Positions 37,769 to 52,074 of a stretch of DNA of 64,000 nt are shown here, piece by piece. The position numbers and the translations under genes are program-made. Every line of letters starts with the position of its first letter. The first letter of the stretch is position 1. The notes below the pieces were generated by a model, which was not told where the DNA came from, did no database searches, and was given only the letters and a program-made list of their open reading frames with translations. Source of the DNA: Eubacteriaceae bacterium (GTDB lineage Bacteria > Bacillota > Clostridia > Eubacteriales > Eubacteriaceae); assembly GCA_030156895.1 (NCBI GenBank), contig JASGLP010000004.1:1-64000 (forward strand). The letters run 5' to 3'.

Positions 37769-38902
37769 ATGAATGCTCAAATCGATTTTTTATATTTAAA
37801 TGAAGAGGATATGATCAAGGCCGGCGTCAAAGATATGGCTGGCTGCGTTGAAGCCATGGATGAGATGTTTCGTTTGCTTAAAATGGGAGATTATCGGATG
37901 GGTGGTGCCAATGGTAATTCCCACGGAGTGATGATGACTTTTCCACTGGAATCCCCCTTTCCTAATATGCCGCTTGATGGACCGGATCGCCGCTTTATGG
38001 CTATGCCGGCCTATCTGGGCGGAGATTTTGATATGGTAGGTATGAAATGGTATGGCTCCAATACTGAAAACAAACAAAAAGGATTACCGCGTTCAATTTT
38101 AATGCTGACCCTTAACGACAAGGATACCGGTGCCCCCCTGGCTTACATGTCGGCCAATATCTTAAGTGCTTATCGAACCGGTGCGGTACCTGGTGTCGGG
38201 GTTAAATACTTCGCCAAAGAGGCTGCCAAAGTGATTGGTATTATCGGCCCCGGCGTGATGAGTAAAACAGCACTGGCTGCCAGCATTGCAGTTCGACCGG
38301 GAATTGATACTGTCAAGATTAAGGGACGCAGTCAAAAATCACTGGATGATTTTGTAAAATATATCGAAAGAGAACTACCAGGAATAAAAAAAGTGGAAAT
38401 TGTAGAAGATATTGAGTCGGCGGTTAGAGGTTCAGATGTCGTCGTTATTGCAACTTCAACCGAAACAGGCGATCCCAGTCTTTACCCCTATATAAAAGAA
38501 GAATGGATTGAGCCGGGAACGGTCATTTGCTGTCCGGCTTCAGCCCGTTTTGATGAAGACTTTATCATAAATAGAGCGCATAATGTGGCTGATAATATTG
38601 AACTCTATGAAGCCTGGGCTGATGAAATGCCATATCCGGCCTATCATACAATTCCAATTCCGGCAGTACACTGTATGGATTTGATTGCCGATGGCAAACT
38701 TTCACAAGAAGGCATCGATGATTTAGGGGATATTATGGTCGGCAAAAAACCATGTCATAAAAAGGAAGATGAAATTGTTATTTTTTCGGTTGGGGGGATG
38801 CCCATTGAAGATGTGGCATGGGGAACGATTGTTTACCGCAATGCGCTAAAAGCAAACATCGGCCTAAAAATTAATCTTTGGAATGAACCCCATCTGGCGT
38901 AA
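37769..38902 (+). CDS. Ornithine cyclodeaminase/mu-crystallin family protein
   Basis: 377 residues, with AAAAGGAG before ATG. The N-terminal oligomerisation/substrate domain carries RFMAMPAYLGG and MKWYGSNTENK. The Rossmann fold has IGIIGPGVMSKTAL near residue 151 and DVVVIATSTE near 223. The family includes ornithine cyclodeaminases, alanine dehydrogenases and imine reductases; related proteins are annotated as tyramine oxidase subunit B. The substrate cannot be settled from sequence. It appears monocistronic, with a leader hairpin and its own terminator. Confidence 0.82.
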   Translation: MNAQIDFLYLNEEDMIKAGVKDMAGCVEAMDEMFRLLKMGDYRMGGANGNSHGVMMTFPLESPFPNMPLDGPDRRFMAMPAYLGGDFDMVGMKWYGSNTENKQKGLPRSILMLTLNDKDTGAPLAYMSANILSAYRTGAVPGVGVKYFAKEAAKVIGIIGPGVMSKTALAASIAVRPGIDTVKIKGRSQKSLDDFVKYIERELPGIKKVEIVEDIESAVRGSDVVVIATSTETGDPSLYPYIKEEWIEPGTVICCPASARFDEDFIINRAHNVADNIELYEAWADEMPYPAYHTIPIPAVHCMDLIADGKLSQEGIDDLGDIMVGKKPCHKKEDEIVIFSVGGMPIEDVAWGTIVYRNALKANIGLKINLWNEPHLA

Positions 38903-38928
38903 AAAAAGCCCCGAGATGGGGCTTTTTA
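38903..38928 (+). terminator. Bidirectional intrinsic terminator
   Basis: AAAAAGCCCC and GGGGCTTTTT pair around a 5-base loop between two convergent genes, with A-runs and T-runs on both sides. Confidence 0.85.
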
Positions 38929-38932
38929 AGTT

Positions 38933-39460
38933 CTAGCGGATGGTGTGAGTGGACATGACTTCAGCAAAAAGGGCAATTCCACCGACAATCAGGTAGATCC
39001 CAGCGACGAAGCCAAAGCCTAGCAGAGCGGTAATGGGAGCAAAAATCAGGAAAAATGATAACAGAATATTGATTACACCGGAAGCAATCAGCCAGCCGCT
39101 GCCTTCGGCGCCGGTTTTCTTGATGGTAATTCCGGCAGTTAACTGGTTAATTCCGGCTGACATAGCCAGGAAAGCCAGCATAAATGCAAAAGTGCCAGCA
39201 GTCTGCAAGGTGTCTGACATCACTAAAAGAATCCCCAGGATAACCGCCATAATCCCTGTGACCAGGTTCCAGCCGTTTTTGACTGTACTACGGGCATAGG
39301 TTACGATGCTGAAGATCCCATAGGCCAGGATTCCAACTTCAAACAGCCAAAAAATGACCTCAGCGGCGAACATGGGTTTAATAAACACAAGCAGGCCCAT
39401 GATAATCATGAGAATGGATACAATAATACCAAAAATTTTCATAGATTTTAAAAATTCCAT
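38933..39460 (-). CDS. DUF308/HdeD-like membrane protein
   Basis: 175 residues, with AAGGAG upstream. Six hydrophobic segments in three pairs match the HdeD/DUF308 architecture, including a MGLLVFIKP turn and the repeated small-residue helices. The function of the family is poorly known; E. coli HdeD is linked to acid resistance. It is transcribed alone, convergent with the ornithine-cyclodeaminase-like gene. Confidence 0.82.
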   Translation of the reverse strand: MEFLKSMKIFGIIVSILMIIMGLLVFIKPMFAAEVIFWLFEVGILAYGIFSIVTYARSTVKNGWNLVTGIMAVILGILLVMSDTLQTAGTFAFMLAFLAMSAGINQLTAGITIKKTGAEGSGWLIASGVINILLSFFLIFAPITALLGFGFVAGIYLIVGGIALFAEVMSTHTIR

Positions 39461-39540
39461 CGTATTCTCCTTTTTTAAAATGCTTATATTTCATTGTACA
39501 TGATAATCTTTCTCTAGACAAGTAAAGAGGAGGATAAATT

Positions 39541-39664
39541 ATGCTAATTATTGGGCCACATTTATCAATTACCGGAGCTTTTACAAAGGCTGGAAACTTC
39601 TCATGAAAGTGATCAGGCTTATGTTAAGGAGATTTCCTGGCTGCGAAGCCTTGATAAACTGTAA
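39541..39664 (+). pseudogene. Deletion remnant of an endonuclease IV (nfo-like) gene
   Basis: A strong GAGGAGG site precedes ATG and the codons MLIIGPHLSITGAFTKAG, which resemble the start of endonuclease IV. The frame soon stops at TGA. In a second frame, ETSHESDQAYVKEISWLRSL ending in TAA resembles the endonuclease IV C-terminus. The two ends meet within CTGGAAAC, so about 250 central codons seem to have been deleted. Family identity rests on short end segments. Confidence 0.55.
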
Positions 39665-39677
39665 GAAACCGCAGCAG

Positions 39678-39722
39678 CCGACGAAATCCAAATGGTCGGT
39701 GCGGGGTTTGTCTACGCACTGG
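39678..39722 (+). repeat. Solo right end of the terminator-associated element
   Basis: CCAAATGGTCGGTGCGGGG followed by TTTGTCTACGCACTGG matches the right end of the three full elements (for example 42594-42625). The left end is missing, and the fragment lies 14 bp after the nfo remnant. Confidence 0.65.
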
Positions 39723-39766
39723 AAGGAATCCACTTGAAATTTTTTGTCTTTTTAGATGTTTTAGGA

Positions 39767-39816
39767 TTGACAAATCAGTCAATGGATGTATAATTAATAT
39801 GTGAATAAGTGTTCAC
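39767..39816 (+). promoter_or_regulatory. Promoter and ArsR-type operator
   Basis: TTGACA (39767-39772) and TATAAT (39789-39794) are 16 bp apart. The imperfect palindrome GTGAATAAGTGTTCAC (39801-39816) directly downstream resembles SmtB/CzrA operators. It should mediate zinc-responsive control of the regulator-ATPase pair. Confidence 0.75.
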
Positions 39817-39838
39817 GTATTTGCGAATGGAGGGTGTC

Positions 39839-40150
39839 ATGGCTAAAGAAGAACGTGTGAGTCAGAATGATGATCTTTTATTTACAGTGGCTGAATTTTT
39901 CAAGGTGCTGGGTGATTCGACCAGGATCAAAATTGTATCCATGTTATTTGAACAGGGTGAACTATGTGTTAGTGATATTGTTGATCAGGTTCAGGTTTCC
40001 AGAACTGCCGTATCACATCAGTTGCGGGTTTTAAAAGATAACCGGATTGTGTCTTTTAGAAAAGAAGGACAAATGAAGTATTATCGACTGGATGATCATC
40101 ATATTGAAGAAATTGTCCGGTTGAGTATTGTTCATTTAGAGCATCAGTAA
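39839..40150 (+). CDS. ArsR/SmtB-family metal sensor
   Basis: 103 residues from the ATG at 39839, preceded by GGAGGG; the longer frame start would run through the operator. Its winged helix includes LGDSTRIKIVSML and VSRTAVSHQLRVL. The C-terminal helix has D-x-H then H-x-x-H eleven residues later (DDHH and HLEH), matching the alpha-5 zinc site of CzrA. The alpha-3N region has only one Cys (ELCVSD), so cadmium/lead sensing as in CadC is less likely. It is encoded 18 bp before the P1B-ATPase. Confidence 0.9.
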   Translation: MAKEERVSQNDDLLFTVAEFFKVLGDSTRIKIVSMLFEQGELCVSDIVDQVQVSRTAVSHQLRVLKDNRIVSFRKEGQMKYYRLDDHHIEEIVRLSIVHLEHQ

Positions 40151-40168
40151 TAGAAAAGAGGTGGAGTC

Positions 40169-42430
40169 ATGAAATTATACTTGGAAGGTTTGACCTGTGC
40201 CAACTGCGCAGGTAAAATTGAACGATTGGTGGCAAAAATGCCCAATGTCAATGATGCCAGTTTTTCGATGGCGACAGGGACTTTAAATATTGAAGAGGAT
40301 ATAGATTTTTCTGAGGAGACGACCTTTGAAGCGGTGGTTAAACTGGTTAAATCATTAGAACCCCATGTCGTGGTCAGAAAAACCAAAGGGCATAAGATCG
40401 ATAAAACAGCATCTCATTGTCACGATGGCAGTTGTAATATTGTACATGGAGAAAAAGAAGGCGCACACGAAGGACAGCATCATGATCATGAAGCGCATCA
40501 CCAGCATGGACATGAGCACGGGGGGATGGAAAAGCGTGAAAAAATTGAACTGCTGATTGCCATGATATTATTTGTTGGAGGTTTTTTTGCCAAGGCCTTG
40601 CTGCCATCTTCATTAGCACTTGTTTCCATGGGCATCTTTCTGGGGGCATATTTATTGGCCGGTTACCATGTCATCATTATGGCTTTAAAAAACATTGGCC
40701 ATGGCCAGATCTTTGACGAAAACTTTTTGATGGCTATTGCGACGGTTGGCGCCCTTATCTTAGGGGAATGGCCGGAGGCAGCCGGGGTTATGATATTTTT
40801 TGGAGTTGGCGAATATTTTCAGGCTAAAGCGGTGGATAATGCCAGAAACGCTATTTCTGAAACAATTCATTTCAGTGCTGAAAATGCCCATCTGATTGAT
40901 GGTGAAAACACACGAACCATCGAAGCCAGCAAAGTAAAGGCCGGCGACCAGATTTTAGTCAAGCCAGGGGAAAAAATTCCGGCTGATGGCCAGGTGGTCG
41001 AAGGCCTTTCCTATCTTGATACGTCACCATTAACTGGAGAATCATATCCGCGAAAGGCAGAGCTTGGAGATCCAGTCCTCAGTGGCATGATTAATGGTAA
41101 TGAAGTTCTAAAAATAAAAGTCACAAAAGATTACGAAGATTCAACAGCTGTTAAAATTATGCATCTGATTGAAGAGGCCAGCGATAGAAAAGGGAAAACA
41201 GAAAAATTTATTACCAGGTTTTCCCGTTATTACACACCGACAGTCGTTATCTCAGCCCTAGTTTTGGCGATTTTACCACCCCTTTTAATAGAGGGTGCGA
41301 GTTTTGAAACATGGATTTATCAAAGTCTGATCTTTTTAGTTGTATCATGCCCCTGTGCGCTGGTTTTATCGATCCCGATTTCATATTTCGGCGGAATCGG
41401 ACGTGCCTCCAAGGAAGGGATTCTAATCAAGGGCGGGAATTATCTTGATGTATTGTATCAGGCTGATACCTTTGTTTTTGATAAAACCGGAACTTTGACA
41501 TATGGTGAATTTAGCGTTTTACAGATGCTGCTGGCGGATGACGTCTCTCAGGAAAGCTTCTTTCAGGCAGCAGCAGCGGGTGAGTTTTTCTCTAATCACC
41601 CAATTGCAGAGGCGGTGCGAAATTACACAAAAACACAGATTCAGGAATCGGCTCTGAGTGATTATAAAGAAATACCGGGAAAAGGAACCCAGGTAAAATT
41701 CAATAATCAATATATCCAAGTGGGAAATCAGGCCTTTTTTAATGAATCTGATATTAAAACACCTACTTGGGAGGGGCAGGGAACAGTCGTTTATGTTGCG
41801 ATTGACAATCAGTATGCCGGGATGTTGATTTTGGGTGATCAGATTAAAGAAAACGCGGCAGATATGGTGAGGGGCCTTAAGAATCTGGGAATTAAAAATA
41901 CCGTAATGCTGAGCGGTGATAACCAGAAAACCGCAGATCGGGTTGGACAGGTGCTAGGTCTTGATCAGGTTATAGGTGATTGCCTGCCCCAGGATAAGGT
42001 TTCTGAATTTGAGCAGATAAAAGAAAAAAGCCGAAAAACGGTTTATGTTGGTGATGGCATGAACGATGCGCCGGTTCTGGCCATATCCGATGCCGGTATC
42101 GCAATGGGTGGTTTAGGATCAGATGCGGCTATTGAAGCTGCTGATATCATTTTGATGAAAGACGATCCGTTGGATATTTTGAAATCTGTTGATATTGCAA
42201 AATATACCCGGAAAATTATGATTCAGAATATCGTCCTGGCACTGGGCATAAAATTTCTGGTGCTTGGCCTGACGGTCTTGGGATACGGTGAAATGTATAT
42301 GGCTATCTTTGCCGATGTAGGCGCGGCAGTCATTACCATTCTAAATACCACTCGCATCCTCAAGTACAAAGGACGGGCGAGTCGGTCAAGCGTTTCTGAT
42401 CCGAGTCTAAGACCTAAAGAAGTGAACTAG
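40169..42430 (+). CDS. Zn/Cd/Pb-exporting P1B-type ATPase
   Basis: 753 residues, with AGAGGTGG before ATG. The N-terminal heavy-metal domain has LTCANCAGKIE, and a His-rich linker (residues ~85-125) follows. The core has the transmembrane SCPCAL motif, the phosphorylation site DKTGTLT, the HP motif FSNHPIA, and GDGMNDAPVL. The CPC metal site with the His-rich linker and a CzrA-like regulator point to Zn(II) or Cd(II) export. Its stop codon lies in the loop of the terminator next to a repeat element. Confidence 0.93.
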   Translation: MKLYLEGLTCANCAGKIERLVAKMPNVNDASFSMATGTLNIEEDIDFSEETTFEAVVKLVKSLEPHVVVRKTKGHKIDKTASHCHDGSCNIVHGEKEGAHEGQHHDHEAHHQHGHEHGGMEKREKIELLIAMILFVGGFFAKALLPSSLALVSMGIFLGAYLLAGYHVIIMALKNIGHGQIFDENFLMAIATVGALILGEWPEAAGVMIFFGVGEYFQAKAVDNARNAISETIHFSAENAHLIDGENTRTIEASKVKAGDQILVKPGEKIPADGQVVEGLSYLDTSPLTGESYPRKAELGDPVLSGMINGNEVLKIKVTKDYEDSTAVKIMHLIEEASDRKGKTEKFITRFSRYYTPTVVISALVLAILPPLLIEGASFETWIYQSLIFLVVSCPCALVLSIPISYFGGIGRASKEGILIKGGNYLDVLYQADTFVFDKTGTLTYGEFSVLQMLLADDVSQESFFQAAAAGEFFSNHPIAEAVRNYTKTQIQESALSDYKEIPGKGTQVKFNNQYIQVGNQAFFNESDIKTPTWEGQGTVVYVAIDNQYAGMLILGDQIKENAADMVRGLKNLGIKNTVMLSGDNQKTADRVGQVLGLDQVIGDCLPQDKVSEFEQIKEKSRKTVYVGDGMNDAPVLAISDAGIAMGGLGSDAAIEAADIILMKDDPLDILKSVDIAKYTRKIMIQNIVLALGIKFLVLGLTVLGYGEMYMAIFADVGAAVITILNTTRILKYKGRASRSSVSDPSLRPKEVN

Positions 42431-42447
42431 TGTTCGCTTCTTTTAAA
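42419..42447 (+). terminator. Terminator, left copy, at the end of the P1B-ATPase gene
   Basis: GAAGTGAAC and GTTCGCTTC pair around TAGT, followed by TTTTAAA. The gene's TAG stop lies in the loop. A copy with one base difference occurs at 42629-42657. Confidence 0.75.
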
Positions 42448-42628
42448 CTGAAGATAAAGTTAATTTTGAATACCTGAGCACCGACAATTGGCTTTTCAGC
42501 TGTCTGCCTCGGGGCGAACAGTTGCTTGAAAATGCTGTTTATTAGTACTTTCAAATTGGGCAACTGTACGAATCCGCGTGCAGACTGCGAAATCCAATTG
42601 GTCGGTGCGGGGTTTATCTACAAACTGA
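42448..42628 (+). repeat. Terminator-associated inverted-repeat element, copy 1
   Basis: It starts ACTGAAGA and ends CAAACTGA. Terminal inverted repeats are GCACCGACAATTGG (42478-42491) and CCAATTGGTCGGTGC (42594-42608). Inner arms CAGTTGC and GCAACTG also pair. No protein is encoded. Near-identical 29-bp terminators lie on both sides. Related copies are at 47595-47856 (inverted) and 50585-50733. Confidence 0.85.
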
Positions 42629-42657
42629 GAAGTGAACTAATGTTCGCTTCTTTTAAA
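42629..42657 (+). terminator. Terminator, right copy
   Basis: The same stem as 42419-42447 (GAAGTGAAC/GTTCGCTTC) with loop TAAT, followed by TTTTAAA. Confidence 0.75.
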
Positions 42658-42673
42658 ATCTGGAAGCGTTTAC

Positions 42674-42737
42674 TTGACAAGGCAGACGGAAACGTGTATG
42701 ATACCATCATAAACATGTACACACAAGATAAACATGT
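42674..42737 (+). promoter_or_regulatory. Promoter and repeat-type operator of the first corrinoid gene
   Basis: TTGACA (42674-42679) and TATGAT (42697-42702) are 17 bp apart. Just downstream the direct repeat ATAAACATGT occurs at 42709-42718 and 42728-42737, each containing the palindrome ACATGT. It may bind the GntR-type regulator encoded nearby. Confidence 0.6.
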
Positions 42738-42767
42738 TATTCTGACTGTAAAAAGGAAGGTAAAGCT

Positions 42768-43397
42768 ATGTTGGATTTAAAAGTGTTAACTCAAGCGGTG
42801 GGGGATTTGGAAGAAGAAGAGGTAATTGATCTTTTAAATGAGTTTGTTGAATCAAACCCTTCTGAGGATGAAGCGCAGGAAGCCGTTGCAGCATGCCAGG
42901 GAGGAATGGCAATTGTTGGCGACCTGTTTGAAAAAGGCGAATATTTTGTGGGAGACTTAATTTTTGCCGGAGAATTACTGACAGAAGCAATTAATACCTT
43001 AAAACCTGTTTTAGGTGGGAATGGATCAGGTTCGACCGGGACGATTATCATTGGAACTGTTCATGGCGATTTACACGACATTGGAAAAAATATTTTCAAG
43101 AGTATGTGTGAAGCGGCTGGATTTGAAGTTGTTGATCTGGGAATTGATGTGGCACCGGAAATTTTTGTGGAAAAAGCCAGAGATATTAATCCTGATATCA
43201 TTGGCATGAGTGGTGTCTTGACCTTGGCGATTGATTCGATGAAAGATACCGTTGAAGCTTTAAAGGCGGCAGGGGTTAAAGCGAAAATTATTATTGGCGG
43301 TAATCCTGTGACCAAAGAAGCGAATGATCTTGTTGGGGCGGATAATTATACTACCAATGCGGCTGAGGGCGTAAAAATGTGTCAGGCTTGGGTGTAA
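42768..43397 (+). CDS. Corrinoid (cobalamin-binding) methyltransfer protein
   Basis: 209 residues, with AAAAGGAAGG before ATG. The N-terminal helical cap (1-~85) and the C-terminal B12-binding Rossmann fold match MtaC/MtbC/MttC-type proteins. GTVHGDLHDIGKNIF near residues 98-112 holds the DxHxxG motif whose His is the lower cobalt ligand. It would accept a methyl group from a substrate-specific methyltransferase and pass it to tetrahydrofolate. No such methyltransferase gene is adjacent. Confidence 0.92.
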   Translation: MLDLKVLTQAVGDLEEEEVIDLLNEFVESNPSEDEAQEAVAACQGGMAIVGDLFEKGEYFVGDLIFAGELLTEAINTLKPVLGGNGSGSTGTIIIGTVHGDLHDIGKNIFKSMCEAAGFEVVDLGIDVAPEIFVEKARDINPDIIGMSGVLTLAIDSMKDTVEALKAAGVKAKIIIGGNPVTKEANDLVGADNYTTNAAEGVKMCQAWV

Positions 43398-43408
43398 TTT
43401 AAAATCAG

Positions 43409-43437
43409 AAAGGCATCTGTTGGGATGCCTTTTTTTG
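43409..43437 (+). terminator. Intrinsic terminator
   Basis: AGGCATC (43411-43417) pairs with GATGCCT (43424-43430), followed by seven T residues. Confidence 0.85.
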
Positions 43438-43499
43438 ATTTTTGCTGAAGAAAGTCGTCAATGTATTAGAAAATTGGTGATTGCTTAATAAAAAATTAA

Positions 43500-43854
43500 G
43501 TAGTTTTGAGGATAATTGTATATACAGGTCGATATAAGTATGCTATAATTTATCAAACGATTTCAAATGATAATAGAGTCAAATTAAAAAAGAACAATTT
43601 TTTTTCAGGATATTTGAATTATGTAAATGATTTAATAAGCAGATACTATTTGGACTTGTCTTTTTTTTATATGAAAAATGTTTGACGGTCCGCTAGAAAG
43701 TATTCTTTATATAAATAAATACTGAAAGAGTTGTTTTTGCAAAATAAATACATTATACTCAAAGAAGAATACAAAATCAGAAAGAACTTCGGTTGGCAGA
43801 TCTGACTCTGTACCTGAGGTTTTATTGCATGTTAGGATAAATGGAGCGAAAAGA
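43500..43854 (+). promoter_or_regulatory. Long promoter/leader region of the second corrinoid gene
   Basis: An AT-rich non-coding stretch. TATACA (43521-43526) and TATAAT (43544-43549) are 17 bp apart. Further -10-like sequences occur near 43709 (with TTGACG at 43681) and at TATACT near 43755. If the first promoter is used, the leader is about 300 nt. I see no cobalamin riboswitch core in it. Confidence 0.4.
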
Positions 43855-44499
43855 ATGAAACAGAGTATCGTTAGATCAATTGAAGGATTATATGAAGATC
43901 GGACTCTGGAACTTGTAAGAATCGCCATTCGAAAAGGATTTAAACCCATAGATATTTTTAACTGGTTGCAGGTGGGGATGGAGCGAGTGGGCAAATTATA
44001 CGAGACCAGCGACTATTTTATTGCCGATCTGATTTTTGCCGGTATTATTTTTCAGGAAGCAATGGAACTGGAAGAATTAGTCGCTTTTAATAATGCTGCC
44101 CCGGAAAAAACAATTGGCAAGATGTTATTATTGTCAGTTTTTGGCGATTGTCACGATATTGGTAAAAATATCTTTGGTTCATTTTCGCGGACAGCTGGTT
44201 TTGAAATCATTGATATTGGTACAGATGTTCCGATGGAAACGGTTGTTGATGCAGCCGAAAAAAATAAACCGGACATCATTGCCCTCAGCGGAATGCAGCA
44301 GGAGACGCTCTATGAAATGCGGGCAATTGTCTGCGAACTGATCAATCGGGGTATTCGTGATGATTTCAAAATCATTATTGGTGGCGCGGTGATCGATGAA
44401 AAGGCTGGTCAGATCGTTGGCGCAGATTTTGCAACGAAAGATGTAACCCTTGGGGTTGATAAATGTAAGCTGTGGATGCTTGAAAAATCAGGAAATTAA
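43855..44499 (+). CDS. Second corrinoid protein
   Basis: 214 residues from the ATG at 43855, which follows GGAG; the longer frame start at 43825 lacks a ribosome site. It has the same two-domain layout as the first corrinoid protein but is clearly diverged. The cobalt-ligand motif is VFGDCHDIGKNIF near residues 100-112. It is grouped with a GntR regulator and a DUF1638 gene (gaps 29 and 15 bp), so probably one operon. It is likely a carrier for another methyl donor. Confidence 0.9.
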   Translation: MKQSIVRSIEGLYEDRTLELVRIAIRKGFKPIDIFNWLQVGMERVGKLYETSDYFIADLIFAGIIFQEAMELEELVAFNNAAPEKTIGKMLLLSVFGDCHDIGKNIFGSFSRTAGFEIIDIGTDVPMETVVDAAEKNKPDIIALSGMQQETLYEMRAIVCELINRGIRDDFKIIIGGAVIDEKAGQIVGADFATKDVTLGVDKCKLWMLEKSGN

Positions 44500-44528
44500 T
44501 GTAACGAGTGGACCGAGGTGGTGAGTAA

Positions 44529-45233
44529 ATGGGATCTCCCGAATATTTAAGAATTGTAGAAGCGATAAAACAAAAGATTACCAGCGAAGAAATTAAGCCG
44601 GGTGATGCCATACAATCAGAGAATCTTCTGTGTGAGGAATTCAACGTGAGTCGGATGACTGTTCGAAAAGGCTTAGCGGTTCTGGTCAACGAAGGCTATA
44701 TCTATTCGATTCCCGGAAAAGGCAACTATGTTTGTGAACCGGATCTGGATCTATATACCCTGCATTTTGATGAGATGCTGCCCAGCGAAAAAAAGGGTGA
44801 AGAAATCCGTTTAATGGAAGTAAATGTTATCAAACCCAGTTATGAAGTTGGCTTTAATCTGGAAATTCCTGAAAATAAACATGTCATTGTGGTTAAGCGT
44901 GTCTTTGTTACGGATGGCGAAGTAAAGGCCTTTGACATAAAATACATTCCTTATTATCGTGGCATACCAATTGTTGAAAAGGAAATCCGTTATGCGACAT
45001 TTCCGGAAATGGTTGCCAAGAAAAATTCAATCTTTGCCATGACCAAGAAACTGAAGATTCGTGCGGCGGCAGCAAAAGGTGAAGTCAGTCAGGTGCTTGA
45101 TATTATGGAAGGTGATCCGGTGCTAGTAGTGGAACAGAAACTGCTCGATGAAAAGGATCATCCGATTGGATGGGGCTTGATGTATTTTTCTGGTGATGAT
45201 TCTGGACTGGAAGCGGTCGCGTCATTTGATTAA
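44529..45233 (+). CDS. GntR/HutC-family transcriptional regulator
   Basis: 234 residues, with GAGGTGG before ATG. The N-terminal winged helix (residues ~5-70, with NLLCEEFNVSRMTVRKGLAV) is followed by a UTRA ligand-binding domain (~90-230). It lies between the second corrinoid gene and DUF1638 and probably controls this cluster in response to a methylated substrate or intermediate. The ATAAACATGT repeats at 42709-42737 are candidate operators. Confidence 0.9.
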   Translation: MGSPEYLRIVEAIKQKITSEEIKPGDAIQSENLLCEEFNVSRMTVRKGLAVLVNEGYIYSIPGKGNYVCEPDLDLYTLHFDEMLPSEKKGEEIRLMEVNVIKPSYEVGFNLEIPENKHVIVVKRVFVTDGEVKAFDIKYIPYYRGIPIVEKEIRYATFPEMVAKKNSIFAMTKKLKIRAAAAKGEVSQVLDIMEGDPVLVVEQKLLDEKDHPIGWGLMYFSGDDSGLEAVASFD

Positions 45234-45248
45234 ATAAGAGGGGAGATC

Positions 45249-45956
45249 ATGAGAGATAAAGTTTTACTGATTGCCTGTGGGATGATTAAAGATGAATTGA
45301 ACCTGGCCATGGAGAATTCTGGCTTTTTTTATGATACCATTTGGATGGATGCAGAACTACATATTAATCCGGATCTACTGCGAAGTGAACTGCAAAAAGC
45401 AATTAATCAAAACCAGACCTATGAGCAGATTTTACTGGCTTACGGGAACTGTGGTAATGGCCTGGTGGGACTAGTCAGCGAAAAGACAAAGTTAGCCTGC
45501 CTGCGGCTGGAGGATTGCATACATGTGCTTTTGCACAATGAAAAAAATCTGAAAAATATTCAGGGTGAAACTTATTTTATTACCAAAGCATGGATAAACA
45601 GTAAAAAATCACTAAAGGAAGAATATCATTATGCCATGACTCGCTATGGCGCCAAACGTGCCGAAGCAATTATGGGAATCATGTTTAAACATTACAAATC
45701 GATGGTCTTAGTCGATACTGGCGCTTATGCTACGGATAGTTGGATTTATTGTGCAAAACATTTAAGTCAGGTTTTACATCTTGATTTTAAAACCATGTCT
45801 GGTGATGTGGGTTTGCTGGAAATGTTTTTATCCCTTAAATGGGATCGCCAGGTGGCCGAGTTTGAGCCAGGCAGAGTGATCAGCAAGGATGATTTTGGGG
45901 TTGAATGCGTACTGGGAAGTTTTTCCAACGCGGGACCTGTATTTTCACAGCAATAA
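45249..45956 (+). CDS. DUF1638 domain protein
   Basis: 235 residues, with AGGGGAG before ATG. The start (VLLIACGMIKDELNLAME), the YGNCGNGLVGL segment and the LRLEDCIHVLL segment are characteristic of DUF1638. This family often accompanies corrinoid methyltransferase genes in methanogens and acetogens, and its conserved Cys residues suggest metal or corrinoid handling. The biochemical role is not established. It is the last gene of the corrinoid cluster. Confidence 0.85.
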   Translation: MRDKVLLIACGMIKDELNLAMENSGFFYDTIWMDAELHINPDLLRSELQKAINQNQTYEQILLAYGNCGNGLVGLVSEKTKLACLRLEDCIHVLLHNEKNLKNIQGETYFITKAWINSKKSLKEEYHYAMTRYGAKRAEAIMGIMFKHYKSMVLVDTGAYATDSWIYCAKHLSQVLHLDFKTMSGDVGLLEMFLSLKWDRQVAEFEPGRVISKDDFGVECVLGSFSNAGPVFSQQ

Positions 45957-45978
45957 TCATAAACGTCTACAAAAACCT

Positions 45979-46022
45979 AAAAACCTTTATGCCAAGTCCC
46001 TGGATGGCATAAAGGTTTTTCT
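45979..46022 (+). terminator. Intrinsic terminator
   Basis: AACCTTTATGCC (45982-45993) pairs exactly with GGCATAAAGGTT (46006-46017), followed by T residues. It closes the corrinoid/GntR/DUF1638 cluster. Confidence 0.9.
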
Positions 46023-46039
46023 TTGCCTTTTGTGGGAAG

Positions 46040-46068
46040 TAGACAAAAAAAAGATCAAGAAGTATAAT
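46040..46068 (+). promoter_or_regulatory. murE promoter
   Basis: TAGACA (46040-46045) and TATAAT (46063-46068) are 17 bp apart, about 30 bp before the start codon. Confidence 0.6.
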
Positions 46069-46096
46069 GATATGAGAAAAAGAGGAGATGGTAAGG

Positions 46097-47572
46097 ATGG
46101 AGCTTAAAAAAATTTTAAATAATATAACAATAGTGAGTACAAAAGAATTTAGGGAGGGACTCGATATTTCGGGAATTGCCTATGATTCAAGAAAGGTTGT
46201 TGGAAATGGATTGTTTGTTGCGATTGAAGGCTATGTCACCGACGGACACCTTTATATCGATCAGGCAATAGAAAAGGGGGCTGTTGCGGTTGTACACGAA
46301 AAAGAACTGGACAACTATCATCAGAATGTCTCTTATATCAAAGTGAAAGATTCCCGATACGCTCTGGGCTTGCTGGGAAGTGCCTTTTATAACGACCCAT
46401 CAAAAGATATGCTGGTGGCTGGAGTGACCGGAACAAACGGGAAAACAACCGTAACGACGATGCTTAAACATATATTTGAAACCACCGGCGACAAATGCGG
46501 ATTGATTGGGACGATTCATAATCTGATTGGGGATACGGTGCTTGACAATAAAGGCCGAACCACCCCCGAATCGCTTGAGGTGCAGGAAACCATCGCTGAA
46601 ATGAAAAATGCGGATTGCACCTGTCTGTTTATGGAGGTTTCCTCTCATGGCCTGGCGTTGGACCGCGTAAATGGAGTGCACTTTGATTATGGCGTTTTTA
46701 CAAATCTGACCCAGGATCATCTGGATTATCATAAAACCTTTGAAAATTATTTCGAAGCAAAAGCAAAACTTTTTTTTCAAGCCCAAAAAGCCGCGGTTAT
46801 TAATACTGATGATAAATATGGCGAAGTTTTAAGAGATAGCCTGGAAGAAAAAACTAATTTGCCAATCATCAGCTATGGTATGGATAAAAAATGTGATTAT
46901 TTTGCCACAGAAATTGAAATGACTAAAGAAGGTTCGCATTTCACGTTGATTACCCCAACGGGCCAAGAAGGAATTTTTATTAATATTCCTGGCGAGTTTA
47001 TGATTTATAATGCCATGGCGGCGATTATTGTGGCAGTTCAGGAAAATATCCCAATGCAGGAGATTAAAGAAGCGGTTGCCCACTTTCCGGGTGTGGAAGG
47101 CCGCATGGAGATTTTGGAAACCGAGGCGCCTTTTGGTGTGGTTATCGATTATGCCCACTCGCCGGATTCGCTGGAAAAACTGCTTCTATCAGTACGTAAG
47201 ATTTTTCCCGGAAGGATTATTCTGGTTTTTGGCTGCAATGGCGACCGCGATAAAGAAAAACGGCCTATTATGGGACGAATTGCCGGATCGTTGGCCGATT
47301 ATATTGTCGTTACCTCCGATAATCCGGCCAGTGAAGAACCAAGGGCGATTATTGATGCGGTGGTTGCAGGCGTTATGGAAAAAACTGATCAGTTTGTTGT
47401 TGAAGAACTTCGTCAGGATGGGGTTTTTCACGGAGCTCGTTTGTGTCGGCCGGGGGATGTTCTGGTTTTAGCTGGTAAGGGGCATGAAAAGCAGGAAATC
47501 CTGAAAACTGAAACCCTCTATTATAATGAATGGGATACAGCCAAGCAAGCATTATCAAAGCTGGGATACTAA
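46097..47572 (+). CDS. murE: UDP-MurNAc-tripeptide synthetase (MurE)
   Basis: 491 residues from the ATG at 46097, nine bases after GAGGAG. Mur ligase motifs are present: VTGTNGKTTVTTML near residue 111, the EVSSHGLALDRV region, DYAHSPDSLEKLL, and LAGKGHEKQE near the end. It adds the third amino acid to UDP-MurNAc-L-Ala-D-Glu. The specificity motif reads DNPA rather than the DNPR of meso-diaminopimelate enzymes, so another residue (Lys- or Ser-type) is likely at position 3. Confidence 0.92.
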   Translation: MELKKILNNITIVSTKEFREGLDISGIAYDSRKVVGNGLFVAIEGYVTDGHLYIDQAIEKGAVAVVHEKELDNYHQNVSYIKVKDSRYALGLLGSAFYNDPSKDMLVAGVTGTNGKTTVTTMLKHIFETTGDKCGLIGTIHNLIGDTVLDNKGRTTPESLEVQETIAEMKNADCTCLFMEVSSHGLALDRVNGVHFDYGVFTNLTQDHLDYHKTFENYFEAKAKLFFQAQKAAVINTDDKYGEVLRDSLEEKTNLPIISYGMDKKCDYFATEIEMTKEGSHFTLITPTGQEGIFINIPGEFMIYNAMAAIIVAVQENIPMQEIKEAVAHFPGVEGRMEILETEAPFGVVIDYAHSPDSLEKLLLSVRKIFPGRIILVFGCNGDRDKEKRPIMGRIAGSLADYIVVTSDNPASEEPRAIIDAVVAGVMEKTDQFVVEELRQDGVFHGARLCRPGDVLVLAGKGHEKQEILKTETLYYNEWDTAKQALSKLGY

Positions 47573-47575
47573 AAA

Positions 47576-47594
47576 GAAACGGCTAGTCCGTTTC
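47576..47594 (+). terminator. murE terminator hairpin, proximal copy
   Basis: GAAACGG and CCGTTTC pair around CTAGT, directly after the murE stop. A second copy is at 47857-47886, beyond the repeat element. Confidence 0.65.
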
Positions 47595-47856
47595 TTCAGT
47601 GTGTTAACAAACCCCGCACCGACCAATTGGATTTCGTAGTCCGCGCGCGGCCACAGGAACTACGTTCCTTTTGGCTCGCGGGTAGTCGCCAAATATAAAT
47701 GAATTTTTTTGGCTCGTTGCCTTCGCGAAGATTCGTACAGTTGCCTAAGAAAGTGCTAATTATTGGCGCTTTTAAGCCAACTGTTCGCCCCGAGGCGGAA
47801 AACTGAAAAGCCAATTGTCGGTGCTCAGGTATTCAATATTAACTTTCTCTTCAGTC
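47595..47856 (-). repeat. Terminator-associated inverted-repeat element, copy 2 (inverted)
   Basis: In the opposite orientation to copy 1. Terminal inverted repeats are GCACCGACCAATTGG (47616-47630) and CCAATTGTCGGTGC (47811-47824). The ends ACTGAAGA and CACTGA are conserved. Its centre carries about 80 extra bases (roughly 47650-47735) not found in the other copies. It lies between two versions of the murE terminator. Confidence 0.85.
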
Positions 47857-47886
47857 AGAAAAAACAGCGAGTCCGTTTCTTTTTTT
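47857..47886 (+). terminator. murE terminator, distal copy
   Basis: A degenerate version of the hairpin at 47576-47594 (CAGCGAGTCCGTTTC), followed by a run of seven T residues. Confidence 0.6.
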
Positions 47887-47958
47887 GTGTACAAACTGAA
47901 TGTTCGACGACATTTAGGGGAAATTCGATGAGAAACTGGTCAATTGTTTGATTGATCA

Positions 47959-49833
47959 TTATTTTAGTGCCTCAAGCGCCTCGAGACGCTCCATTGCTTC
48001 CAGATAGCGGTTTTCCAGCTGGTCTTTTTCAGTGCTGAGATTTGAAAGTTTTACATAATCACTGAGATCTTCGCCCATTTCCAATTCGATCTGATCCAGC
48101 CTATCTTCGATCTCCGGGATCTCCTTCTCAAGCGCTTCGCATTCACGCTTTTCTTTATAGGTCAGGCCTTTACGATTGTTTTCCCGAGGTTGACGGCTAG
48201 CGGTTTTTTTAAGCGCCTTTTCAGCCGCTTGATCAGGGACCGATTTTTTGGCAAGATAATCGGAATAGTTGCCGGTTTGAATGCTTGTTTGACCACTTCC
48301 CGTAAAGGCAATGATCTTATCGCAGGTACGATCCAGAAAATAGCGGTCATGAGAAACAGTGATAACAGAGCCGGGGAATTCATCGAGATAGCTTTCGAGA
48401 ATGGCAAGGGTTTCCAGATCAAGGTCGTTGGTCGGTTCATCAAAAAGCAGGACATTTGGCTTTTGAATCAGAATACCCATCAGGTAAAGCCGCCTTTGCT
48501 CACCACCGGAGAGTTTTTTTATATAAACCCATTGCTTGTCGCGATCAAACAAAAAAGTTTCCATCATCTGAGCGGCGCTGATTTGTTGTCCGCTTGAATC
48601 GGTAACCGTTTCAGCCAGCTCGCGAATATACTCGATGGCTTTTAAGTTTTGATCCATTGTTTCTGATTTCTGAGAAAAATAACCGATTCGAACCGTTTCG
48701 CCAATGTCTATTTGTCCCTGATCAGGCTTTATACGGCCGGTGATCAGGTTTAAGAGGCTTGATTTTCCCAGACCGTTATTACCGATAATGCCAATGCGTT
48801 CCCCCTGGCCAATAATCATACTAAAATCGTCAAGAACTGTTGTTTCGGCAAATGATTTTGAAACATGGTCGAGTTCAATGACTTTTTTTCCTAAGCGGGA
48901 TGTGGCAAGACAAATATCAAGCTTTTGCTGTGTCAGGTCTACTTCCTGGTTTTGCAGGTCTTCAAAACGCTGAATTCGTGCTTTCTGCTTGGTGCTTCTG
49001 GCTCGGGCACCCCTTCTGATCCAGGCTAGTTCCTGACGGTAGAGGTTTTGTCTTTTTTGCTCACTGGCGATGGCCATTTCTTCACGAACCGCTTTTTGTT
49101 CTAGGAAAGCGGCGTAATTTCCGGAGTATTCATAGAGATTCCCCTGTGTCAATTCAAATGTTTTAGAAACAATGCGGTCAAGAAAATATCGGTCATGGGT
49201 AACCATTAATAGAGCCCCTTGTCGATTCATTAAGAATTTTTCCAGCCAGTCAATGGTTTCGTTGTCCAGATGATTGGTCGGTTCATCAAGGATTAAGAGA
49301 TCGCAGTCGGATAATAGCGCGGCTGCCAAAGCAACGCGTTTTTTTTGTCCGCCGGAACAGTCGCTGATTTTGTGGTGCAGGTGATTGATGCCCAGTTTTG
49401 ATAAGATGGTCTTAATCTGCGCCTGAAAATCCCAGAGGCTTTTATCATCAATGGACTGGGAAAGGGTTAGCAGTTTTGCTTCCAGATTTTTATCATGCGG
49501 ACTTTCGTTCAGTTGATCCAGGGTCTCTTCGTAGTCCCGAATCAGAGATATCTCGGGTGAATCCATTTTGAGAACCGCATCCAGAATCGGTAAAGATTCA
49601 TCAAACACGGGATCCTGGGGGAGGTATTCGATGCGTTTATTTCCGAAAAAAGTCACGGTTCCGGAATCAGCCGGGGCAATCCCGGCAATGACTTTAATCA
49701 GTGAGGTTTTTCCAGTTCCGTTTAAGCCAATCAGGCCGATTTTATCTTTTTCATCTATTCCGAAGTTAAGGTTAGAGAAAAGTGTTTTTTCGCCATAAGT
49801 TTTGGTCAGATTTTCTACTTGTGCAATATGCAT
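47959..49833 (-). CDS. ABC-F family ATPase (Uup-like)
   Basis: 624 residues with two ABC domains. The first has Walker A GLNGTGKTSL and signature SGGQKKRVALA; the second has GNNGLGKSSL and LSGGEQRRLYLM. The linker helix region lies between them (~235-310), and a C-terminal coiled coil of the Uup type covers about 540-624. It has no membrane segments. ABC-F proteins act on ribosomes; the Uup subgroup is also linked to branched-DNA metabolism. Antibiotic resistance activity is not indicated. Confidence 0.9.
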   Translation of the reverse strand: MHIAQVENLTKTYGEKTLFSNLNFGIDEKDKIGLIGLNGTGKTSLIKVIAGIAPADSGTVTFFGNKRIEYLPQDPVFDESLPILDAVLKMDSPEISLIRDYEETLDQLNESPHDKNLEAKLLTLSQSIDDKSLWDFQAQIKTILSKLGINHLHHKISDCSGGQKKRVALAAALLSDCDLLILDEPTNHLDNETIDWLEKFLMNRQGALLMVTHDRYFLDRIVSKTFELTQGNLYEYSGNYAAFLEQKAVREEMAIASEQKRQNLYRQELAWIRRGARARSTKQKARIQRFEDLQNQEVDLTQQKLDICLATSRLGKKVIELDHVSKSFAETTVLDDFSMIIGQGERIGIIGNNGLGKSSLLNLITGRIKPDQGQIDIGETVRIGYFSQKSETMDQNLKAIEYIRELAETVTDSSGQQISAAQMMETFLFDRDKQWVYIKKLSGGEQRRLYLMGILIQKPNVLLFDEPTNDLDLETLAILESYLDEFPGSVITVSHDRYFLDRTCDKIIAFTGSGQTSIQTGNYSDYLAKKSVPDQAAEKALKKTASRQPRENNRKGLTYKEKRECEALEKEIPEIEDRLDQIELEMGEDLSDYVKLSNLSTEKDQLENRYLEAMERLEALEALK

Positions 49834-50083
49834 AATTTTTCCTTTTATATTGAAGTAAAACTATTTTAACATAAGAGTGACCGTCAATAAAATTAATTTT
49901 GCAATTCTAAAGCGATAAAACCAAATTTAACAGATAAAGATATGATTTAGCCACTTAATTTGAACAAGACTTGTGATACAATAAAAAAATAAATATTGCA
50001 GTATAAGAAGAAGGTTAGTTTAAGTAATTGATGAGATATACATGAAGATAATTTATGTCTTAATGTTCTAGGAGGTAGAAAAA

Positions 50084-50557
50084 ATGATGCTTGGTAAAAC
50101 GGTTTTTATTGCTAAAAGTGCGGATGTGGTCGGTCGGGTTAAATTAGGGAATTTTGTGAGCATCTGGTTTCAGGCGGTTCTGCGTGGAGATGTTGATAGC
50201 ATAACCATCGGGGATCGTACTAATATTCAGGATGGCACAGTGGTGCATGTAGCACCAGGGCATCCAACCGTCATTGGTGATGGTGTCAGTGTTGGCCATA
50301 ATGCTATTATTCACGGCTGTAGCATTGGCGATAACGTCTTAGTTGGGATGGGTGCTATCGTATTAAATGGCGCTCAAATAGGTGATAACTCGATTGTCGG
50401 GGCGGGGGCTCTGGTAACTCAAGGCAAAGTTTTCCCACCCAATTCGCTGATTATCGGCAGTCCGGCCAAAGCGGTTAGAGCGCTATCTGAAGAAGAAATT
50501 CAATCAATCAGAGATAATGCTGAAGAATACCTGGATACAATGAAGGGCTATATGTAA
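50084..50557 (+). CDS. Gamma-carbonic-anhydrase-like hexapeptide protein
   Basis: 157 residues, with AGGAGG before ATG. Left-handed beta-helix hexapeptide repeats run from about 10 to 125, then a C-terminal helix. Metal-ligand histidines occur in TVVHVAPGHP and VGHNAIIHG, as in gamma-carbonic anhydrases. Acetogens need bicarbonate/CO2 exchange, but many family members have no proven activity. The gene's terminator is duplicated around a repeat element. Confidence 0.85.
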   Translation: MMLGKTVFIAKSADVVGRVKLGNFVSIWFQAVLRGDVDSITIGDRTNIQDGTVVHVAPGHPTVIGDGVSVGHNAIIHGCSIGDNVLVGMGAIVLNGAQIGDNSIVGAGALVTQGKVFPPNSLIIGSPAKAVRALSEEEIQSIRDNAEEYLDTMKGYM

Positions 50558-50584
50558 AAAAACCGATGAAAATTCATCGGTTTT
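50558..50584 (+). terminator. Terminator of the gamma-CA-like gene, left copy
   Basis: ACCGATGA (50562-50569) pairs with TCATCGGT (50574-50581), followed by TTTT. It is repeated at 50734-50759. Confidence 0.8.
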
Positions 50585-50733
50585 AGACTGAAGAAAAAGC
50601 ATGTTTAAGCGCCTGAGCACCGACAATTGGCTTGCAAACGCTTATAATTAGCGATTTCAAATTGGGCAACTGTACGAATCCGCGCGCGGACTACGAAATC
50701 CAATTTGTCGGTGCGGGGTTTGTCTGCACACTG
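50585..50733 (+). repeat. Terminator-associated inverted-repeat element, copy 3
   Basis: It begins with ACTGAAGA and ends CACACTGA. Terminal inverted repeats are GCACCGACAATTGG (50617-50630) and CCAATTTGTCGGTGC (50700-50714). It is the shortest copy, lacking part of the central region of copy 1. It is flanked by two copies of an ACCGATGA/TCATCGGT terminator. Confidence 0.85.
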
Positions 50734-50759
50734 AAACCGATGAAAGATCATCGGTTTTT
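50734..50759 (+). terminator. Terminator, right copy
   Basis: ACCGATGA (50736-50743) and TCATCGGT (50748-50755), followed by TTTTT. It also lies just past the end of the convergent minus-strand gene. Confidence 0.75.
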
Positions 50760-50763
50760 GAAG

Positions 50764-51387
50764 CTAGCTGATTTGTTCGATATAGATGCTGGCGGCGCTG
50801 TTGCCCGGCAGGTCGGTTTTCTCCTGAATGTTTGGAGAAATCGAGACGCGAATGGAGTAAGCACCGGATGTGGCTGTGAAGTTGGTGGTTTCAGTAACGG
50901 TTTCTTCACTAAAGCCTGTCAGGTTTGACATTAAACTGCGATAAAAAGTTGTCAGTTCTTCAGTGGTGTTTTGCGATACAAAGGAAGTCAGCCAGCCGGG
51001 ATTGCCAGAAGCGCTGGTAATTAATTGGGATTCGGAAACCATTGTCGCATTGTATAATGGAATCAGATTGCTGGGATAACCGGTAGCTAAAAGATTTGAA
51101 CTGTCTTCATACATAGCATCCTGATTGTCGGCAATGATCTGCTGCACCGCTTGAGGTACTTCAATTGCAGCGGTAGGGGTTTCGTCAGGAATATTGGAGG
51201 TGTCAGGAGTTTCGGTTGTGTCTTCTGTTGTGTCCTGACTTTCGTCTGTTGTGGTATCATTTGTTGATTGATCAGTTGTCTGTCCAGTGTCGCTGTTATC
51301 GTCTTTCAGTTTTGGAACCAGAAAGACCGTTGCAGCAATCAGGGCAACAACCAGGATCACTGCTATAATAATCGAACTTTTTTTCAT
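50764..51387 (-). CDS. Secreted or membrane-anchored protein of unknown function
   Basis: 207 residues, with AAGGAGAT before ATG. A hydrophobic N-terminal segment (~5-25) serves as a signal or anchor. A Thr/Asp/Glu/Ser-rich spacer (~30-78) is followed by a globular ~125-residue domain with no motif I recognise. There is no lipobox Cys. It is probably exported and attached by its N-terminus. It is convergent with the gamma-CA-like gene. Confidence 0.7.
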   Translation of the reverse strand: MKKSSIIIAVILVVALIAATVFLVPKLKDDNSDTGQTTDQSTNDTTTDESQDTTEDTTETPDTSNIPDETPTAAIEVPQAVQQIIADNQDAMYEDSSNLLATGYPSNLIPLYNATMVSESQLITSASGNPGWLTSFVSQNTTEELTTFYRSLMSNLTGFSEETVTETTNFTATSGAYSIRVSISPNIQEKTDLPGNSAASIYIEQIS

Positions 51388-51481
51388 AAGGATCTCCTTC
51401 TTGTAAGTACGGATAGGTTTTTCCGTTTAACATTCATTATAAACGAAAACCTTAAAGTTTCAAATAAAGATTTCAAAAAAC

Positions 51482-51790
51482 TTGATTTTACAGTTGATTT
51501 TGGTTAGAATATGAGTCAGTAATAAAGAAAGCTTAAATGTTTTGATAAGGATGTTCAAAAGCAATTTTTATCCAGAGAATTAATCAGATGGTGGAAGATT
51601 ATTAAAAAGGCTTTTGGAGGATCACCTTTGAACAGGGTACCTGAAATGTGAATTTCAATCTTGAAGTTCTGAAACTAGGGTATCACGGGGAACCGTTATC
51701 TTCATAAATGAGTGGGCATCAATGTCAACTTGGGTGGTACCGCGATCTTTTCGTCCCTTGATTTTATCAGGGGACTTCTTTGCGTTTTAA
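51482..51790 (+). promoter_or_regulatory. ileS promoter and T-box riboswitch
   Basis: TTGATT (51482-51487) and TAGAAT (51505-51510) are 17 bp apart. The leader contains the T-box core TGGGTGGTACCGCG (51731-51744), then a terminator (GTCCC and GGGAC-type arms from 51752, T-rich tail to about 51790). An ATC triplet near 51680 is a candidate isoleucine specifier. Uncharged tRNA-Ile would stabilise the antiterminator and turn ileS on. Confidence 0.88.
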
Positions 51791-51793
51791 TGA

Positions 51794-51921
51794 GGCCGTG
51801 CGAAGTTTTGCAAAATGACTTTGCTTTGGAAGCTCGCTTACAAAGCACAGTCATTTTGCAAAACTTCATAGGGCGTTAGCCCGCGACGAGGTGGCGCGGC
51901 AGCGACACTGAGTGCACGGCC
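51794..51921. repeat. Palindromic insertion between T-box and ileS
   Basis: The outer arms GGCCGTGC (51794-51801) and GCACGGCC (51914-51921) enclose a 27-bp stem with one mismatch (51802-51828 with 51841-51867, loop 12 bases) and a GC-rich remainder. It looks like a small MITE-like or REP-like element. It lies in the ileS leader after the T-box terminator and would form a strong hairpin in the mRNA. Confidence 0.65.
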
Positions 51922-52074
51922 GAGGGTACGTCTTTGTGAATAAAAAGAGGCACCAAAAGCGACACCTATCAAGGACTAGGTTTTTAACCACCATGGAAAC
52001 GACAGCATTGGTAACACTTAAGCTAAAAAGAAATCATTAATCAGTCATGAGTGAATCAGACGAGGAGGAATAAA

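Follow-up and report, generated by a model that had tools for sequence, protein, structure and literature searches.

Hairpins serve as insertion targets for IS1272/TnSha1, insertion sequences (ISs) of the IS1182 family from staphylococci, which insert without sequence specificity at stem-loops that include several confirmed terminators (Furi et al. 2016, PMC4923244; Wan et al. 2017, PMC5678879). According to the accessible parts of these papers, to which our statements on the literature here and below refer, the stem-loop is deleted or replaced and no target duplication arises; both papers also cite a review according to which palindromes are the target of some IS1182 members. Wan et al. (2017, PMC5678879; Figure 13, pathway b) further drew a route by which joining at the 5′ feet would yield a second copy of the entire stem-loop, as a possibility for which the accessible text gives no example. 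In the present study we describe a small inverted-repeat element, found in a 64,000-nucleotide stretch (the window) of contig JASGLP010000004.1 of a Eubacteriaceae bacterium (assembly GCA_030156895.1, positions 1–64,000), that duplicates the hairpin at which it inserts.

Long or variable duplications are known from other groups. IS1634 and IS1549 produce duplications of variable length, from 8 to 514 bp, but they belong to another family, and neither a mechanistic model nor a link to hairpins is given in the accessible text (PMC2266710). IS1202 and IS481EU produce long duplications, of about 15 and 25 bp, although these lengths are discrete and the transposases are of other families (PMC10045372). 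The element also resembles bacterial miniature inverted-repeat transposable elements (MITEs) and small repeats (RUP, BOX, SPRITE and others) in being short, folded back on itself, intergenic and of high copy number; however, the accessible part of a review of bacterial MITEs names none that duplicates terminator hairpins, and the term IS1182 is absent from its main text (PMC10969869). The literature searched, which left out most subscription journals, yielded no account of IS1182 elements duplicating hairpins. ISfinder gives direct repeats of 0–60 bp for the IS1182 family, and part of the present finding may be noted there. The first-pass annotation had called the target duplication uncommonly long and structure-specific. 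Hairpin targeting as such has already been published for the family, though with deletion as the outcome. The tie between duplication and hairpin across the MITE and its autonomous forms is new, and hairpin targeting itself is not.

Its ends place the element in the IS1182 family as a new MITE. It is very probably a high-copy MITE derived from an IS1182-family IS and dependent on an IS1182-type DDE transposase acting in trans, with the length of the target duplication set by the terminator-like hairpin at the insertion site.

The direct repeat ends where the target hairpin ends

More than a hundred copies of the element are present in the genome. In the bacterium's own assembly (3.0 Mb, 101 contigs, 85% complete) the inner arm GAGCACCGACAATTGGC was matched 127 times with at most two mismatches, and the reversed control pattern gave no match. 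Among the matches listed of these 127, 96 copies with both inner arms were examined and both ends were found in 84. The element has the form 5′-CAGACTG...CACTG-3′, with CAGACTGAAGACAAA as the consensus left end, and a length of 180–189 bp was measured in 70 of the 84 copies whose ends were found. Its description in the first-pass annotation as MITE-like was borne out, the element being short and present in many copies. The copies do share their ends as that annotation had said, but the true ends are CAG...CTG, and the base past CTG that had been included is part of the duplication. Repeats started right after CTG in 42 of 63 cases, with A as the first base in 35 and another base (C, T or G) in seven; because the alignment begins on a match, these seven are the informative cases, and in them the left repeat copy carries the identical base. 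Similarly, the last base was not T in five of the 43 repeats that ended right before CAG, and that base recurs in the right copy. Thus the base after CTG and the base before CAG both belong to the duplication.

A direct repeat abutting both ends was detected in 63 of the 84 copies. When the flanks of different copies were paired as a control (30 pairings), the mean was 0.17 repeats and the maximum 1. The 63 repeats were 63 distinct sequences of 12–30 bp (16–30 bp in 62 of them), and 54 contained a clear hairpin (stem score at least 12). A T-tract after the hairpin or an A-tract before it was present at 61 of the 63 sites, in agreement with the proposal that terminator hairpins are the target. 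Over the 54 clear stems, the end of the repeat correlated with the end of the hairpin with r = 0.93, the largest value in 10,000 permutations being 0.55. The repeat ended one base beyond the hairpin in 33 of the 54 and within three bases of its end in 52, as expected if the entire hairpin is duplicated, which had also been proposed. With all 63 repeats included and the stem start limited to 3 nt, r was 0.64. Earlier correlations with hairpin length had been weaker (r = 0.18 at first, and 0.76 when the stem had to start within 6 nt), because a stronger adjacent hairpin had been chosen at some sites. Of the 84 copies, 42 had a stem scoring at least 16 that began no more than 3 nt from the right end, and 43 had one equally close to the left end, compared with 2% on average and at most 4.8% in the control.

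Since the repeat ends where the hairpin ends, the duplication has no fixed length. The 25–30 bp suggested at first is accordingly not a fixed range: the length tracks the hairpin. A fixed wide stagger of about 15 or 25 bp, as in IS1202 and IS481EU, combined with a mere preference for terminators, is hardly credible on these data. Duplications of 15–17 and 24–29 bp in the IS1202 group (PMC10045372) lend it a precedent, but the lengths found here (16–30 bp for the MITE and 20–38 bp for the autonomous ISs described below) follow the hairpin site by site, and the parent is of the IS1182 type.

Window copies and empty sites in a relative

All three window copies were present at the loci where the first-pass annotation had placed them, each with the local terminator on both sides and with a different terminator at each locus. 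Copy 1 (42444–42627, forward strand, 184 bp) has a degenerate left end, TAAACTG instead of CAGACTG, and is flanked by the hairpins GAAGTGAACTAGTGTTCGCTTC (42419–42440) on the left and GAAGTGAACTAATGTTCGCTTC (42629–42650, with TTTT next) on the right; by alignment its direct repeat is 30 bp and extends past the 42419–42440 hairpin through TTTTAAA. Copy 2 (47597–47858, 262 bp) is inverted, on the reverse strand, and is a long form with an additional hairpin module. It lies between AAGAAACGGCTAGTCCGTTTCTT on the low-coordinate side (47574–47596) and AAAAAACAGCGAGTCCGTTTCTT on the high-coordinate side (47859–47881, with a T run next). Copy 3 (50584–50733, forward strand, 150 bp) is a short form between AAACCGATGAAAATTCATCGGTTT (50560–50583) and AAACCGATGAAAGATCATCGGTTT (50734–50757). 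All six hairpins are given on the forward strand, and the direct repeats of copies 2 and 3 are 23 and 28 bp by alignment. Immediately past the terminator copy of copy 2 there is a lone right-end-like sequence, TTTGTGTACAAACTGA (47884–47899), perhaps a remnant of an earlier insertion into the same terminator.

The corresponding region of a relative of the same genus, G012, is syntenic with the window at 76–82% identity. At the three sites G012 has no element and a single hairpin each. Where copy 3 would lie, the alignments of its two flanks share 25 bases of G012, approximately the duplicated stretch. In the 24% of G012 that was examined, both flanks could be aligned for 15 of the 84 copies, and in 13 of these G012 lacked the element; by eye, G012 carries the element at the same place at the first-listed L090 site, and at L101 it has an element nearby in a different spot. 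Hairpin orthology was also judged by eye. A single orthologous hairpin was recognized at eight of the 13 empty sites (L001, L011, L024, L050, L051, L054, L080 and the third-listed L090), including the exact left-copy hairpin, present once, at L054 and a nearly identical one, also once, at L011. Two copies of one hairpin were seen at none of the 13 empty sites or the three window sites in G012. At L080 a second, unrelated hairpin adjoins the orthologous one.

These empty sites bear on two other explanations. Insertion into, or retention only at, tandem terminator copies that already existed would require two copies of one hairpin at orthologous sites; none of the 13 had them, and the repeats abut the ends of the element to the base, which makes this explanation, in favour of which nothing was found, highly improbable. 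Replacement of the hairpin in the manner of IS1272, with the flanking hairpins belonging to something else, would suit the same IS family and the same kind of target (PMC4923244, PMC5678879). It is nevertheless very unlikely here, since the same hairpin stands on both sides of the element and once in the empty site.

Autonomous relatives of the IS1182 family

Full-length transposons with the same ends were found elsewhere, in a genome of the genus (G015, locus L196) and in Streptococcus phage YS387. The L196 element is 1488 bp long and lies inside a duplicated hairpin, with the ends CAGACTGTCAAAGAAC and CAGACTGTCAAAAAAG located by an automatic end search. Its product, a transposase of 474 amino acids, scored 362.5 bits against the NCBIfam IS1182 model NF033551 (cut-off 270), and PF13751 and PF05598 were both over their cut-offs. 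A genus variant of the MITE has the left end CAGACTGTCAAAAAAG, identical in 16 of 16 positions with one end of L196, and the own-genome variant CAGACTGAAGACAAA agrees in 15 of 15 positions with one end of the IS1182-family element of phage YS387. An L196-like element in G016 (L195) lies between two copies of CACTAATATATATATTAGTT, and one in G012 (L193) between two hairpins that are similar yet diverged. The transposase of L196 has a 100% identical counterpart in A. wieringae DSM 1911, from which we infer that the genus is Acetobacterium. Of 19 genomes from the genus, 15 contained the IS1182 domain PF13751, the own genome not being among the 15. ISEfa7 and other IS1182-like elements of Firmicutes are among the closest known systems: an ISEfa7-type transposase is 45% identical to that of L196, and its left end CAGACTGTAGACAAAG matches the MITE left end CAGACTGAAGACAAAG in 15 of 16 positions. 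ISEfa7 is autonomous, and the copy examined yielded no right end from which a duplication could be read.

Hairpin duplication was also analysed in the autonomous elements themselves. Scanning bacterial and archaeal genomes yielded 442 relatives, of which the best 80, mostly from Clostridia and some from Thermoflavimicrobium, were kept; 13 of these loci had no ends and seven a flank that was too short, leaving 60 readable. The hairpin was duplicated in 43 of the 60, over 20–38 bp, and the length of the duplication followed that of the hairpin with r = 0.993 (n = 43; largest of 10,000 permutations, 0.57). In all 43 the repeat ended within 2 nt of the hairpin end. The 43 duplications represent 42 distinct ones, since two are one sequence in two records, and nine of the IS loci come from a single Chakrabartyella chromosome. 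A stem scoring at least 16 abutted both ends in 54 of the 60 loci. Neither the 13 loci with a different hairpin at each end (L260, L270, L286, L290, L291, L294, L298, L306, L314, L321, L326, L328 and L332) nor the four others were counted as duplications; the 13 suggest what is expected from recombination between copies, with genome rearrangement. Among the loci where tracts could be counted, at least four T followed the right hairpin copy in 30 of 40 and at least four A preceded the left copy in 31 of 37.

Further duplications were observed in a Cetobacterium somerae plasmid (22 bp), in phage YS387 (22 bp, the IS lying between two copies of AAGAGCCGCGAAAGCGACTCTT) and in a Providencia rettgeri plasmid (18 bp). 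The Cetobacterium IS had at first seemed to lie in the centre of a palindrome, but a wider view showed duplication of the full hairpin. No convincing IS ends were found in Streptococcus phage Javan87 or in the E. hirae plasmid, and the Thermocaproicibacter record stops at the IS.

As read from these sequences, the MITE and its autonomous relatives as a rule insert at the foot of a hairpin that resembles an intrinsic terminator, whatever its sequence, and duplicate the whole stem-loop. RNA-based insertion at transcript 3′ ends, similar to that of group IIC introns, is extremely improbable: group IIC introns also sit downstream of terminators, but the present elements have terminal inverted repeats, a hairpin duplicated on both sides and, in the autonomous forms, a DDE-type transposase.

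Other candidate parents were rejected. The ISs of the IS1634 type at eight loci (L221–L224, L235, L244, L248 and L249) had neither these ends nor hairpin duplication, the thresholds of the end search being our own. IS1202, suggested by the duplication lengths, was set aside because the parent type is IS1182. An IS in the own assembly (L140) has GGGCTT-like ends and a transposase that scores as IS5.

Effect on terminators and neighbouring genes

It had been proposed that each copy leaves its upstream gene terminated twice. This proved mostly wrong. At least four T within 8 nt followed the right hairpin copy at 43 of the 63 sites and the left copy at only three, the left copy running instead into the first bases of the element. 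Conversely, at least four A within the preceding 8 nt were found for 50 of the 63 left copies and for 13 of the right copies. Thus a rightward transcript would usually pass the left hairpin, cross the element and stop at the right copy. Some repeats include part of the tract (mean of 1.8 T in their last four bases), and since the repeat of window copy 1 includes TTTT, the left copy there may still work. On each side the element is inserted between a hairpin copy and a tract, with a single hairpin left to every tract. In principle, transcription from either direction would still meet one complete terminator, and genes reading into the element would have it in their 3′ untranslated regions.

Both tracts were present at 32 of the 63 sites, only the T-tract at 11, only the A-tract at 18 and neither at two, so that a strong orientation bias is absent. 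The lack of a strong strand bias, together with the symmetry of the duplication about the palindrome, would suit a dimeric transposase that reads the palindrome as B-form duplex and cuts at its edges, with no cruciform. Such a reading of the duplex would have to cope with widely varying arm lengths and no common sequence, which seems hard at variable spacing, and we consider it unlikely, though worth keeping in mind.

The neighbours of the 84 copies were in tandem in 28 and 17 cases, convergent in 26 and divergent in five; four copies had a neighbour not found at the locus edge and four lay inside an open frame. Genes oriented towards the element had their 3′ ends at a median distance of 26 bp from it, and 86 of 97 such distances were at most 120 bp. 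In a large survey, IS1182 was over-represented between convergent genes (PMC9208149).

A duplication length set by the target

The duplication of the hairpin by an IS1182-type enzyme could be explained as follows. A helper transposase, of the type found in the relatives, would be supplied in trans and would cut the cruciform at both 5′ feet. Gap filling would then copy the hairpin to either side of the element, the outer A-tract remaining with the left hairpin copy and the outer T-tract with the right one. Target duplications of DDE transposons are usually read as the fixed spacing of two active sites. Here the spacing is set by the target hairpin and varies between 16 and 38 bp from one site to another, so that recognition and cutting of cruciforms by a transposase become directly testable with natural elements.

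Several observations weigh against this explanation. No clean direct repeat was found in 21 of the 84 copies with ends, 12 of the 96 copies had no recognizable ends, and the left end of window copy 1 is degenerate. A clear stem is missing from nine of the 63 repeats, such as TATGGTAATATGTTT at L101, and the hairpin scoring and its limits (stem start within 3–6 nt of the junction) are our own. Four of the 84 copies are located within open frames of 90 codons or more, and no orthologous hairpin was recognized at five of the 13 empty sites. The MITE and the ISs have only the terminal 15–16 bases in common, and the fold-back interior of the MITE was not seen in the IS sequences examined. As the first-pass annotation had noted, no transposase was seen in the window, and no IS1182-type transposase was detected in the 85%-complete own assembly either, with PF13751 or a five-relative profile; the helper is thus postulated from relatives, which lowers the certainty about it. 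ISPse1 of Paracoccus is likewise an IS1182-family element with 16-bp terminal repeats, but a 4-bp direct repeat is listed for it (PMC3281130). With this repeat and the deletion caused by IS1272, hairpin duplication is not a rule for the whole family. Finally, the sequences would fit recognition of the folded form and of the palindromic duplex alike.

A broader reading can be put forward in parts, each of them tentatively. A large part of the IS1182 family could quite possibly perform a structure-set transposition, in which a terminator is extruded as a cruciform and the DDE transposase joins at its two 5′ feet. It is conceivable, if somewhat short of probable, that the target fixes the length of the duplication in this way and that one complete terminator is kept for each flanking gene. 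The deletion by IS1272 and the present duplication may, as a plausible conjecture, be two outcomes of one enzyme architecture that differ in the foot attacked. Terminators as landing sites, with each neighbour keeping a hairpin and a tract, suggest a route to high copy number with little harm. For annotation, the hairpin rule gives exact finding of the ends and empty sites of these IS1182 elements and MITEs.

The fold-back interior and length variants

The element folds on itself: a near-consensus sequence of 186 bases had a folding free energy of −43.4 kcal/mol as DNA (z = −7.5) and −73.7 kcal/mol as RNA (z = −6.7). In 38 copies from the own genome, changes on both sides that keep the pair occurred in four of 40 predicted pairs, one of the pairs being so changed in 17 of the 38 sequences. 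In 20 sequences from the genus compensatory changes were found in eight of 36 pairs. The compensatory changes in both alignments indicate that the fold-back is kept across divergent copies, possibly by gene conversion between the arms or by selection on DNA or RNA structure. This interior conservation across the genus (interiors of L143–L159; alignments A2 and A3) exceeds what is expected of a decaying MITE. The final part of the broader reading, which we put at somewhat less than even odds, is that the fold-back interior could act as a structured module with a function, carried by roughly a hundred genes in their 3′ untranslated regions. A search of Rfam over 38000–52000 gave nothing above the gathering score except a T-box leader (see below). 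A Qrr match overlapping one copy of the element was rejected, with 24.9 bits below the gathering score of 50 and an E-value of 0.64.

Length variants with a core of 215–219 bp (L018, L040, L042, L050, L057, L065 and L084) or 156–157 bp (L078 and L083) were also observed. The extra modules in such variants are hairpin modules of approximately 80 bp with GGCAACGAGCCAA...TTGGCGACTGCC and a short insert resembling ACCCAAGGGGGCAGACCC. Similar inserts are present in L154 (G002) and L153 (G004).

Other features of the window and assembly

A fourth, truncated copy of the element lies at 39657–39721 on the forward strand; it consists of the right part only, with the end TTTGTCTACGCACTGG, and no left half was seen adjoining it. 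The IS5-type element of the own assembly mentioned above (L140, 1390–3026) is a separate element with the ends GGGCTTGCTGAAC, flanked by CTACATAGG repeats. The T-box leader is at 51533–51761 in the window, scoring 101.7 bits against an Rfam gathering score of 93, and lies upstream of an open frame at 52051–55173 that presumably encodes an isoleucyl-tRNA synthetase, which its product resembles.

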